Of a DNA stretch of 64,000 nt, positions 5,805 through 26,205 are shown in pieces; position 1 is the first letter of the stretch, and each line of letters opens with the position of its first letter. This stretch comes from Acidobacteriota bacterium. Its GTDB lineage: Bacteria; Acidobacteriota; UBA6911. The notes under the pieces were generated by a model. It did no database searches, was not told where the DNA came from, and saw only the letters and a list, made by a program, of their open reading frames with translations. Location: contig JAISUT010000056.1 of assembly GCA_031271905.1 (NCBI GenBank), forward strand, positions 41,856 to 105,855. The letters are read 5' to 3'. The position numbers were made by a program, and so were the translations under genes.

Positions 5805-6323
5805 TCAGTCCGCGGCCTGCGCGTGTTCCGCGGCATCCTCGTACAGCAGCCGCCGGACGTCGAGGAGTATCTTGACCTCGCCCCCCGCCTTGCCGATGCC
5901 CTGTATGTAGCTGGGGCCGCCCTTGCCCGTGTGGGGCGCGGGCTCGATCTGGTCTTCGGGGATGGACGCCACCTCGTTGACCTTGTCCACCACCAGCCCC
6001 ACGGCCTTGTCCTCGACGTTGACCACCACGATGCATGTGCGCTCGTCGTACTCCCGCTCCGGGAGGTTGAAACGGATGCGCACGTCCATCACCGGGATGA
6101 CCTTGCCGCGCAGGTTGATGACCCCTTTGACGAAGCGGGGCAGGTCGGGGACGTCGGTTATCTTCTGGATGCCGATGATCTCCGTGACGTAGCGGATCTC
6201 GAAGCCGTAGTCCTCGTTCGCCAGGCGAAAGGTGAGGAACCGCCCTTTCAGCGTGTCCTCCTCGACGCCCATGACATCCTCATCGACCGTTTTCTCTGCC
6301 AGCGCACTTCCCATTTTCCCCAT
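5805..6323 (-). CDS. cheW: CheW chemotaxis coupling protein
   Basis: About 170 residues in the real product; the ORF track start at 6467 adds a low-complexity leader with no ribosome site. Plausible starts are ATG 6323 (MGKMGS) and ATG 6314 (MGSALAEK). The CheW fold is clear: FLTFRLANEDYGFEI, the EIIG and ITDVPDLP segments, the VKGVINLRGKVIPVMD core, and the late VDKVNEV strand. It bridges the receptor and the CheA P5 domain. It lies between cheA and mcp, in operon order. Confidence 0.94.
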   Translation of the reverse strand: MGKMGSALAEKTVDEDVMGVEEDTLKGRFLTFRLANEDYGFEIRYVTEIIGIQKITDVPDLPRFVKGVINLRGKVIPVMDVRIRFNLPEREYDERTCIVVVNVEDKAVGLVVDKVNEVASIPEDQIEPAPHTGKGGPSYIQGIGKAGGEVKILLDVRRLLYEDAAEHAQAAD

Positions 6324-22067: not shown

Positions 22068-23360
22068 ATGGCGTCCGAGACTGTTGATTTTGACGATATC
22101 TATGAAAGCGCCGCCGTGCTGCCCGGGCGCCCGCTTGAGGGCGAAGCCGCCCCCGCCGATGACGCAGACCGGATCATCGACGCCTTCCGCGCGTTCACCG
22201 ACGCCTCGTGCTCCCTGGAGTCCGCGTTCGGACAGCTCCAACGGCGGGTCGAGCGGCTGTCGGAGGAGTTGGAGGCGAAGAACCGCGACTTGGAGCGGAG
22301 CCTGCGCGAGAAGCAGGAGGCGCAGGAGTACCTGCGGACGATACTCGAAAGGCTGCCGTGCGGCGTGTTCGTGCTGGAGGATGGCGGCGAGATGACGCTC
22401 TGCAACCCCATGGCCGCCGACGTGCTGCGCAAGGCGCGCGACAAGGCGGGGAGGTTCAAGAACAGCGAGCTGCGCAAGTTGTTCGCCGCTTCGGCGGACG
22501 GGCGGCGCGAGGAGACCGAGATCGCGCTCGCGGCCAGCGGCGAGCGGCGGGTGCTGGCGACGTCGGGGACTCCGCTCGAGGACGAGCAGGGGCGCGCCTT
22601 GGGCACGCTGCACATCATCCGCGACGTGACGCTGGTCAAGGCGCTGGAGGAGAGGACTCAGCGGGGGGAGCGGCTGGCGGCGATGGGGGAGATGGCCGCC
22701 GAGCTGGCGCACGAGATCCGCAACCCCTTGGGGAGCATCGAGCTGTTCGCCTCGTTGCTCGGGCGGGAGTGCGCCGGGGACGCCAAGCTCTGGGCGGAGA
22801 ACATCCGCATCAGCGCCCGCTCGTTGAACACCATCGTCTCGAACATGCTGCATTTCTCCGGCCCGCTCTCGCCGGTCTTCGCCGAGACCGACATGCACGA
22901 GGTCGTCCGGGACGTCGGCGCCTTCTGCGAGCCGATGATGCGCCAGCGCGGCGTCCGCTGGGAGATGGCGTTGGAGGCGGAGGTCGCGCTCGCCTGGGCG
23001 GACCGGGGCTTGTTCAAGCAGCTCCTGCTGAACCTGATATTCAACGCCATGAAGGCGATGCCTGCGGCGGGCTCGCTCACGGTGCGTACGCGCAATGTCG
23101 CCAGGCCCGCCGATGGCGTCGATGATGTCGATGCGCGGCGCCACCTGCTGGAGTTGCAGTTGCGGGACACCGGCGTCGGCATCGCGCCCGAGCATCTGCA
23201 ACGGATATTCGACCCCTTCTTCACCACGAACCGGAACGGGACCGGGCTGGGGCTGTCGATCGTCCACCAGATCGTGCAAAGCCATTCCGGGGACATCCGG
23301 GTGGAGAGCGAGGTGGGGCGGGGAACCGCCTTCACGATCACGCTCGACACGCTGCCCTGA
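22068..23360 (+). CDS. Soluble PAS sensor histidine kinase (FlrB/NtrB type)
   Basis: 430 residues with no membrane segment. A coiled coil at about 50-90 leads to a PAS-like domain (about 90-190), then HisKA with the phospho-acceptor in AAELAHEIRNPLGSIELF (His about 215). HATPase_c motifs follow: NLIFNAMKA (N box), DTGVGIAPEH (G1), FFTTNRNGTGLGLSIV (F and G2). The layout matches kinases that pair with sigma-54 activators, such as FlrB of the flagellar cascade. No response regulator is adjacent, so the partner and the pathway are uncertain. The start follows a GGGGGA site. Confidence 0.92.
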   Translation: MASETVDFDDIYESAAVLPGRPLEGEAAPADDADRIIDAFRAFTDASCSLESAFGQLQRRVERLSEELEAKNRDLERSLREKQEAQEYLRTILERLPCGVFVLEDGGEMTLCNPMAADVLRKARDKAGRFKNSELRKLFAASADGRREETEIALAASGERRVLATSGTPLEDEQGRALGTLHIIRDVTLVKALEERTQRGERLAAMGEMAAELAHEIRNPLGSIELFASLLGRECAGDAKLWAENIRISARSLNTIVSNMLHFSGPLSPVFAETDMHEVVRDVGAFCEPMMRQRGVRWEMALEAEVALAWADRGLFKQLLLNLIFNAMKAMPAAGSLTVRTRNVARPADGVDDVDARRHLLELQLRDTGVGIAPEHLQRIFDPFFTTNRNGTGLGLSIVHQIVQSHSGDIRVESEVGRGTAFTITLDTLP

Positions 23361-23559
23361 CCTGCGCCAACCCGCCGTGTGCCGCATTGGCGAAAAGTGT
23401 GCGGAGTGCCCCTGCAGAAAGTCCGGCGTCGCCCGAATCGCATTCGCAAGGGCGTCCCGCCCCTGCCGCTCGATGGCGTGGCCCGACGCCGCGAAGCCCC
23501 GGCGCCGTGCGCGCTAATCACGCCCATCCCCGTCCGTGTTGGATTGGCGATGATTTATG

Positions 23560-26205
23560 TTAGGATATGGTTTTTTGAAAGCGTGGGGGGGGGGGGGGGG
23601 GGTAAGGCACGGGAGTGACGTCTTGCTTCAGCAACCCCCGGCTGGCGGCGATGCGGAGGGCGTCCGTGCGGTTCGACGCCCCGAGCTTGGTGTAGATGCG
23701 CTGGATGATGCTCTTGACGGTGTTGACCGACAGGTTCTTCTCCTCGGAGATCTCCCCCAAGGTGAACCCTCGGAAAAGCTCTTGCAGCATCTCCATCTCT
23801 TTGGGGGAAAGGTCTACGTGGGCGCGTTGCGGCTTCCCGGGCTCGTCCGCGCCGTTTTTCGCGAACGGGAACCGTTCGGCGATCCTGAAGAACTTCTTGG
23901 CGTATGCCGACGCCTGCAGGCGTATCTTCTCCAGGAACTCCCTGGGGATCGGCGCGTTGTCCCTGAGCGCCGCCTCCGTCAGCGCCCGCATGTCCTTCCC
24001 CCACTCCACGAAGGGGAGGAACAGCCCCGCAGGCTGCGCCAGGTCGTAGGCCTCCTTGAGTTTCCCATAGGCGGCGGGGCGGTTTTGCATCTGGTACAGC
24101 GTCACGCTCTCCATCACCGCGATCTCCACCTTGCCGAAGATGAAGGTCCCGACGTTCGCCTTGCTGTAGTTGAGCACCGCCAAGGTCGCGGGGTGGTTCC
24201 GTTCCCGTAAAAGCGCCTTGGCGCGGATCAGGAGGTCTTGCCCCTTGATGTGCGTGTTGAGGCGGGGGACGCCCGTCTCGCCGCGCAACCAGCGCGCGAG
24301 TTTCTCCGTCGCGCCCAGGTGGGCGTAGAACCAGCCCCTGAAGATGTCGTTGTAGATGTAGCGGTTCAGGTACTCCTCGACGGTCAACAGGTGTTCGAGC
24401 CGTTCGTGGATTTCGATGATGGCGTCGTGGTTCCCTTGGAACGCGGCGATGCGCATCAGGTAGAAAAGCGCCTGGCTCTCCACCTCGTATTGGTTCTTCT
24501 GCCGGGCGCGTGCCGTCGCCTCGCGCAGGTAGCTCTCCGCGCCGTCCATGTCCATGCGGAAGAAGTGGACTTCGCCCCGGCTCACGCAGTCCTGCCCCCA
24601 CATGCATCCGTGCATGGCCGCCGCGGTCTGCGCGACCATCCTCCCCTCCTCGGCGATGAACGCCTCCATGTCGTCCGGGTTCGGCGTCCCCGCGCGGCAG
24701 GCGTAGGTGCCGATGCTGGCGATGGTCATCGGGCCGGAGATCTCCCCGCCCCAGAGCGATTTGTAATGGAGCGCCTTGGCGAAGCACTCGGCGAAATCGT
24801 AGTTCCGGTCGGCGAGGCAGCGGAGTTTGCGGAGGAACCCCAAATGGGTGTAGCAGCCGAAGAGGAGGCGGTTCAGCGTCGGGGACGCCTCTTGCGGCTC
24901 GTACTTGGCGATGACCTCCGTCAACTTCTCATTCGCCTCTTCGATGTTGCCCGTGCTGAGGAGCAGCCGGATCAGGATGACCCATGCCAGCGGCTGGGAC
25001 TCGTAAGTCTCCTTGGGGAGTTGGCGCATGAGGTCGAGCAGGAACTCGGCGTCTTTGTCCGGTATCGCCATAGGCAGGGTGTAGACCTGCTCGCTGACCT
25101 TGTCGAAATTCCCCGACCGGCTGTAATAGCTGATGGCGTCGATCGCCTGCCCGACGGAGGCGCTCCATTCCGCCGCCTTCCTCCAGACCGCCTTCTTCTC
25201 GGCCGGGAGCAGCTCGTCCTGGAAGCCGCTGAGGTATTCCGCCAGCAGCCGGTGTATCTGCCAGGTGTTCTGGTAGGTGTCGAAATAGACGAAGGAGCCC
25301 ATCGACTTCATCTGCTCGACCATCTCCCGCGCCCCCTCGTCCAGTTGCTCGATCAGCTCCGGCGCCAAATGGTCCAGCAACGTCAGCTTGATCAGGAACC
25401 GGCGCAGCTCCGGACTGACGCCCATGACGACCTCGCTCTCGATCAACTTGAAGATGTTGCTGCGGATGACGTGCGAGGTGTAGAACCTCCCGGGCGCCGA
25501 TTTCTTCAGATAGAGCCCGACCAGGTGGATGGCGAACGCCCACCCTTCCGTGTCGCGGTATGCGGCGTCCAGCGTCTCTTTGGGGGCGTTGATGCCCAGC
25601 AACTGGAAGTACTCCGCCATCTCGTCCCAACTGAACCGGAGCTGTTCTTCGGTGATTTCCACCAACGCGCCTTTGGAAAGGTGGAGGATCATGTTGAACG
25701 GCGGCTCTTTCCGGGAGATGAAGACCGTGGTGACGTTTGGGTAGGGGAGGGTGATGCATTTTTCGAGGAATTCGAGCGCGGACTTGTTCTCCAGCAGGTG
25801 GAGGTCGTCGAAGACGAAGATGTATTTCTCCAGCGCCGGGTCTACGTGCTTCTGCAGGACGTCCAGGAAGCGTTCGAACTGGGGATCGGTCGCGGGGAAC
25901 CCCAGCTTGGCGAGTTCGGCGGCGGCCTTCGCGTTGAGCAGCGCGAGGGCGCGGGTGAAGTTGTCCCAGAACCGGTTGACGATGTTGTCGCGCGGCGACA
26001 GTTGCACCCACAGGGTGCGGTGCGCCCGTTTCCGCAGGTAGGAGTAGACCGAATGCGTCTTGCCGTAGCCTGTTCCGGCCGTGACCGTCACCATGGGGCT
26101 GTGTAGCGCGTCGTCGAGGATGTCGTCGATTTGGGGGCGTTCCAGGTAGACCTGGTTCTCTGGGACGCGCGCGGCGGAGCAGTGGGTGGCAGGGTTTCGT
26201 AGCAT
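23560..26205 (-). CDS. MalT-like LuxR-family ATP-dependent transcriptional activator
   Basis: 881 residues. A STAND-type NTPase head carries the Walker A loop AGTGYGKTHSV (about 43-53) and a Walker B-like strand YIFVFDDLHLLE. A winged region and a long array of TPR-like helices (about 330-770) follow. The C-terminal LuxR helix-turn-helix is LSPKEMEMLQELFRG through NTVKSIIQRIYTKLGASNRT (about 800-860). The final residues are VPYPPPPPPRFQKTIS: the proline run is encoded by an 18-base homopolymer, so slippage would change the tail. The ATG at 26205 follows AGGTGG. The effector and regulon are unknown; it stands alone. Confidence 0.92.
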   Translation of the reverse strand: MLRNPATHCSAARVPENQVYLERPQIDDILDDALHSPMVTVTAGTGYGKTHSVYSYLRKRAHRTLWVQLSPRDNIVNRFWDNFTRALALLNAKAAAELAKLGFPATDPQFERFLDVLQKHVDPALEKYIFVFDDLHLLENKSALEFLEKCITLPYPNVTTVFISRKEPPFNMILHLSKGALVEITEEQLRFSWDEMAEYFQLLGINAPKETLDAAYRDTEGWAFAIHLVGLYLKKSAPGRFYTSHVIRSNIFKLIESEVVMGVSPELRRFLIKLTLLDHLAPELIEQLDEGAREMVEQMKSMGSFVYFDTYQNTWQIHRLLAEYLSGFQDELLPAEKKAVWRKAAEWSASVGQAIDAISYYSRSGNFDKVSEQVYTLPMAIPDKDAEFLLDLMRQLPKETYESQPLAWVILIRLLLSTGNIEEANEKLTEVIAKYEPQEASPTLNRLLFGCYTHLGFLRKLRCLADRNYDFAECFAKALHYKSLWGGEISGPMTIASIGTYACRAGTPNPDDMEAFIAEEGRMVAQTAAAMHGCMWGQDCVSRGEVHFFRMDMDGAESYLREATARARQKNQYEVESQALFYLMRIAAFQGNHDAIIEIHERLEHLLTVEEYLNRYIYNDIFRGWFYAHLGATEKLARWLRGETGVPRLNTHIKGQDLLIRAKALLRERNHPATLAVLNYSKANVGTFIFGKVEIAVMESVTLYQMQNRPAAYGKLKEAYDLAQPAGLFLPFVEWGKDMRALTEAALRDNAPIPREFLEKIRLQASAYAKKFFRIAERFPFAKNGADEPGKPQRAHVDLSPKEMEMLQELFRGFTLGEISEEKNLSVNTVKSIIQRIYTKLGASNRTDALRIAASRGLLKQDVTPVPYPPPPPPRFQKTIS
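23585..23602 (+). repeat. 18-bp poly(G) tract inside the LuxR gene 3' end
   Basis: Eighteen consecutive G on the plus strand (C on the coding strand), after the HTH and before the stop. The three possible frames give tails RFQKTIS, TLSKNHILT, or a longer one starting HAFKKPYPN. Such tracts are slippage-prone. Confidence 0.9.

Follow-up and report, generated by a model that had tools for sequence, protein, structure and literature searches.

The run of 18 G residues near the 3′-end of a MalT-like regulator gene in the window (the whole 64-kb stretch of DNA analysed here) is best explained as a real slippage-prone tract that is tolerated in a dispensable C-terminal tail, with switching between its frames mostly near-neutral; we put the probability of this reading at about 0.6. 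Slippage at long G runs is an established process. The tract would be an expanded poly-G run prone to it, one of about a dozen in the genome, and gain or loss of bases during replication would give rise to a mixture of cells whose regulators differ only in their last residues. As all three forms of the regulator would retain every domain, the switch would be mostly near-neutral, and the tract would be tolerated at the gene end rather than kept there to regulate activity. Tract length probably varies between cells, and the effect of the tail swap on the regulator is probably weak: no folded part is added or removed at this locus, and both paralogs manage with no such tail.

The regulator gene showed a strong coding composition, with GC fractions of 0.60, 0.39 and 0.89 at the three codon positions. 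Its product had been described in the initial annotation as a MalT-like LuxR/STAND activator, and domain searches bore this identity out. TPR_MalT (PF17874) was found at residues 524-745 (3.7e-17, 63 bits; Pfam cut-off 45 bits) and GerE (PF00196) close to the C-terminus (9.5e-12, 44.8 bits; cut-off 23.5 bits). In the N-terminal half, residues 35-368 aligned to residues 31-371 of solved MalT of Escherichia coli (8bob), and this alignment, together with the motif GTGYGKT at residues 44-50, identified an NTPase (STAND) module. The STAND ATPase part, the TPR_MalT region and the C-terminal GerE HTH thus follow one another in the same order as in E. coli MalT, although the two proteins are distant (E 2.4e-14 over the N-terminal half).

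Two paralogs of the regulator, 51% and 33% identical to it, were found within its own genome. The 51% paralog (L057, contig C21) adjoins an opposite-strand gene that was recognised by eye as glycogen-branching-enzyme-like, a position that would be in keeping with a MalT-like function in glucan metabolism. Searches of nine genus mates, of 38 genomes from the class (its own and 37 others) and of the wider contig collection gave no ortholog. For the neighbouring argC, the best named relatives were Acidobacteriota MAGs (84% and 66% identical), and the CarboxypepD-beta-barrel proteins fit Acidobacteriota as well. The named Acidobacteriota contigs near argC that entered the synteny comparison carried no related regulator or kinase.

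Inspection of the window confirmed that the tract consists of exactly 18 consecutive G residues, as first annotated, which read as C18 on the coding strand (Table 1). Elsewhere in the window, G runs reach at most 9 bases and C runs at most 8. By chance, between 1.3e-5 (geometric) and 8e-5 (tail extrapolation) G runs of at least 18 are expected per window, and with an expectation below 1e-4 the run is exceptional. It lies at 98% of the regulator coding sequence, beyond GerE and within the last 15 codons (PYPPPPPPRFQKTIS), where the initial annotation had correctly placed it after the HTH. The GC content of the adjoining A+T-rich stretch is 37%, against about 66% for the window. The convergent histidine kinase gene, which is treated here simply as a neighbour, stops about 200 bp away from where the LuxR gene ends.

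When the reading frames were recomputed, the three alternative tails came out as they had been written before. In the C18 frame the protein ends in ...PPPPPPRFQKTIS, with RFQKTIS after the proline run; the C19 frame gives ...PPPPPPTLSKNHILT, with TLSKNHILT after the proline run; and the C17 frame gives ...PPPPPHAFKKPYPNINHRQSNTDGDGRD, in which the proline run is followed by HAFKKPYPNINHRQSNTDGDGRD. Past ...GLLKQ, the entire tails comprise 20 (C18), 22 (C19) and 35 (C17) residues. The shift in tail length in any frame is therefore a few to about 15 residues, and no domain is gained or lost. The GerE domain is present in all three frames, in agreement with the earlier proposal that a change in tract length would switch the C-terminus and keep the HTH.

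Table 1. Features at the regulator locus (window positions)
Feature	Position	Strand	Basis or remark
MalT-like LuxR-type regulator gene, 881 aa (STAND ATPase, TPR_MalT, GerE HTH)	23560..26205	-	ORF, Pfam, coding composition
GerE/LuxR HTH domain, residues 799-853	23647..23811	-	Pfam; not altered by tract length
20-residue C-terminal extension DVTPVPYPPPPPPRFQKTIS, residues 862-881	23563..23622	-	alignment with paralogs, DNA ends
G18 tract (C18 on the coding strand)	23585..23602	.	candidate slippage site for C-terminal switching
A+T-rich stretch	23537..23585	.	adjoins G18; contains the C18-frame and C19-frame stop codons
PAS-HisKA-HATPase histidine kinase gene	22068..23360	+	Pfam; convergent neighbour of the LuxR gene

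Both paralogs end directly past the HTH, at GLLRR and GILPR, and the 20-residue extension of the window protein is absent from them. Solved LuxR-type HTH chains, matched by sequence, end at query residue 859-860. When the last 91 residues were modelled with AlphaFold2 from the single sequence, the four HTH helices were recovered, the last of them terminating near residue 855, and what follows had no secondary structure; as it was built from one sequence only, the model is given modest weight. Because the paralogs stop earlier, the solved HTH chains end and the model is unstructured there, the tract falls in an extension outside the fold, which is probably dispensable and is predicted to be disordered.

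The tract was found to belong to a genome-wide set, some members of which are placed like phase switches. Pattern searches of the Acidobacteriota draft genome (3.4 Mb, 67 contigs) returned 55 sites with at least 10 G and 11 tracts of at least 14. The counts were 31, 9 and 1 at lengths 10, 11 and 12 and remained flat from 13 to 21; extrapolation of the 10-to-11 ratio gave only 0.3 expected tracts of at least 14, against the 11 observed. Gene interiors held 25 of the 40 tracts of 10-11 but only 1 of the 14 tracts of at least 12 (Fisher p = 4e-4), in a small set with heuristic, composition-based gene calls from which the contig-end tract of C49 was left out. That long tracts are so rare inside genes is expected if unstable tracts survive only where they are near-harmless or act as switches. 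Five of the 11 tracts of at least 14 are no more than 400 bases away from a contig end, which is consistent with long or variable runs breaking the assembly.

Expansion of the tracts through loss of mismatch repair was considered and rejected: this genome (G000) has a MutS_I domain in an open frame of 903 aa and a MutL domain in one of 645 aa, and since both genes are present with open frames there is no mismatch-repair defect to explain the expansion. Long tracts were likewise rejected as a genus-wide feature. Among ten genomes of the genus, tracts of at least 13 were confined to G000 (13 tracts) and G009 (2 tracts); the eight other genomes had none of this length flanked on the searched side, an absence that is weak evidence in fragmented assemblies. 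Tracts of at least 10 are also numerous in G005 and G004. In one genus mate, a very long run of G at the edge of a contig looks artefactual.

Several other tracts of G000 are placed like switches. On contig C51 (L131:1544-4665), a hybrid histidine kinase gene carries a C13 tract between its receiver and Hpt domains. At C13 translation ends at 845 aa and the Hpt domain (PF01627, E 7e-11) is out of frame, while at C11, C14 or C17 the frame runs to about 1040 aa through Hpt; a paralog of this kinase holds receiver and Hpt within one frame. The tract may be a phase switch that adds or removes a whole domain of a phosphorelay protein, or the assembled C13 may be a homopolymer miscall by one base. 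No ortholog of the kinase was found in the genus mates above the cut used, where only paralogs and one 43% relative were obtained. The kinase tract is a stronger lead than the window tract.

Contig C9 (L031:1207-10721) carries tandem genes for TonB-type outer-membrane proteins with a common MSSRGGG-like start. The first gene of the pair has an in-frame G9 and the second has G14 at the same conserved position, which puts its signal peptide out of frame; the peptide would be in frame at 12 or 15. An in-frame G15 was found on contig C48 within an open ORF that is adhesin-like by sequence and has no Pfam family. Contig C10 (L032:5962-6390) carries a C16 tract, 413 bases upstream of a large gene whose product has a TPS secretion domain, and a promoter-length switch is possible there. 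On contig C64 (L135:4084-4095), two possible start codons of an ArsR-family regulator are separated by a G12, and a change in its length could alter translation of that regulator.

Long runs were also seen in two further places. Three long G tracts on contig C18 (L034:3150-3290 and 5920-6010) are found near a DNA methylase gene (N6_N4_Mtase), and one repeated element of about 60 bases precedes two of the three. Contig C49 ends (L037:6050-6063) and contig C50 begins (L038:1-19) in a C run, so that the two contigs may join at a long tract; an ORF recognised by eye as DnaA-like lies about 1 kb from this run.

As far as can be judged from the sequence, the architecture at the window locus matches C-terminal phase variation in form: a long homopolymer is present late in the frame, beyond the functional domains, and the three frames end soon after the tract with differing C-termini. 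Helicobacter canadensis has eight poly-G genes with read-supported length ranges, most of which alter only a few residues, and its G10-14 tracts at gene 3′-ends vary in reads (PMC2823697). The window locus is similar in having a poly-G run of at least 10 at the 3′-end of a frame, where three frames swap a few terminal residues, and further tracts in the same genome (PMC2823697). However, the H. canadensis lengths vary in reads while the window tract is known by a single assembled length only, no transcription regulator is described among the eight published genes, and phylum and base composition differ (PMC2823697).

In Neisseria gonorrhoeae, four C-terminal phase-variable genes are described in which, as here, the C-terminus is changed by a repeat close to the 3′-end (PMC5320596). 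The third frame there sometimes joins further coding sequence, whereas no fusion arises at the window locus; the tracts of the genes considered are far shorter (G6-G8 against G18), and a strain comparison exists (PMC5320596). In bvgS of Bordetella pertussis, a poly-C run in a regulator gene leads to a frameshift, a likeness that bears on the hybrid kinase of contig C51; the C6/C7 truncation of bvgS turns the system off, whereas the window tract removes no domain (PMC1891110).

The window tract might instead act as functional C-terminal phase variation, in which tails differing in charge, length and end residues affect stability, folding or DNA binding and give a graded, selected output. We hold this to be unlikely, if the most credible of the alternatives. 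It gains from the class being described in H. canadensis and N. gonorrhoeae, from a second regulator of the genome, a hybrid kinase, in which the frame of a tract decides Hpt attachment, and from the position of the window tract next to a DNA-binding domain. Ribosome slowing at consecutive prolines is established, and the six consecutive prolines near the stop of the window protein could have such an effect. Yet neither paralog has a tail, no structure is predicted for it and no frame gains or loses a domain; nor was there an ortholog in the 38 class genomes or the contig collection by which conservation could be shown. Near-neutral variation is thus more likely than tuning of DNA binding or stability by the tail.

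That the real run is shorter, or its length miscalled, in sequencing or assembly appears improbable. Homopolymers are error-prone, and the draft is in 67 contigs with several tracts at contig ends; the artefactual-looking run of the genus mate points the same way. The G18 tract, however, lies about 40 kb from the closest contig end with unique and in-frame flanks on both sides, the tandem outer-membrane protein pair has a short and a long G run at one conserved position, and long runs are scarce inside genes, a bias that random read errors would not produce. We give slightly less credence still to an action at the nucleic-acid level, by a G-quadruplex or a transcription roadblock at the convergent gene ends, to which the coding overlap would be incidental. 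Eighteen G residues are able to form a G-quadruplex, and the tract sits where the LuxR and histidine kinase genes converge, beside the A+T-rich stretch; a search for terminator-like or promoter-like sites at the tract found none, and nothing links its length to transcription.

The best-known cases of slippage-based switching come from host-adapted pathogens, and no report of it in Acidobacteriota was found in the literature searched. The long G tracts suggest, tentatively and with the odds against it, an Acidobacteriota lineage, probably gut-associated or anaerobic, with a poly-G phasome in which a kinase would gain or lose its Hpt domain, a MalT-like regulator would swap its tail and outer-membrane proteins would be turned on and off. 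The window tract alone probably matters little. If the tract set does switch, it would extend slippage-based switching to Acidobacteriota, and the set offers a clear test of signalling rewired by homopolymer slippage, foremost through the contig C51 kinase with its tract between receiver and Hpt.
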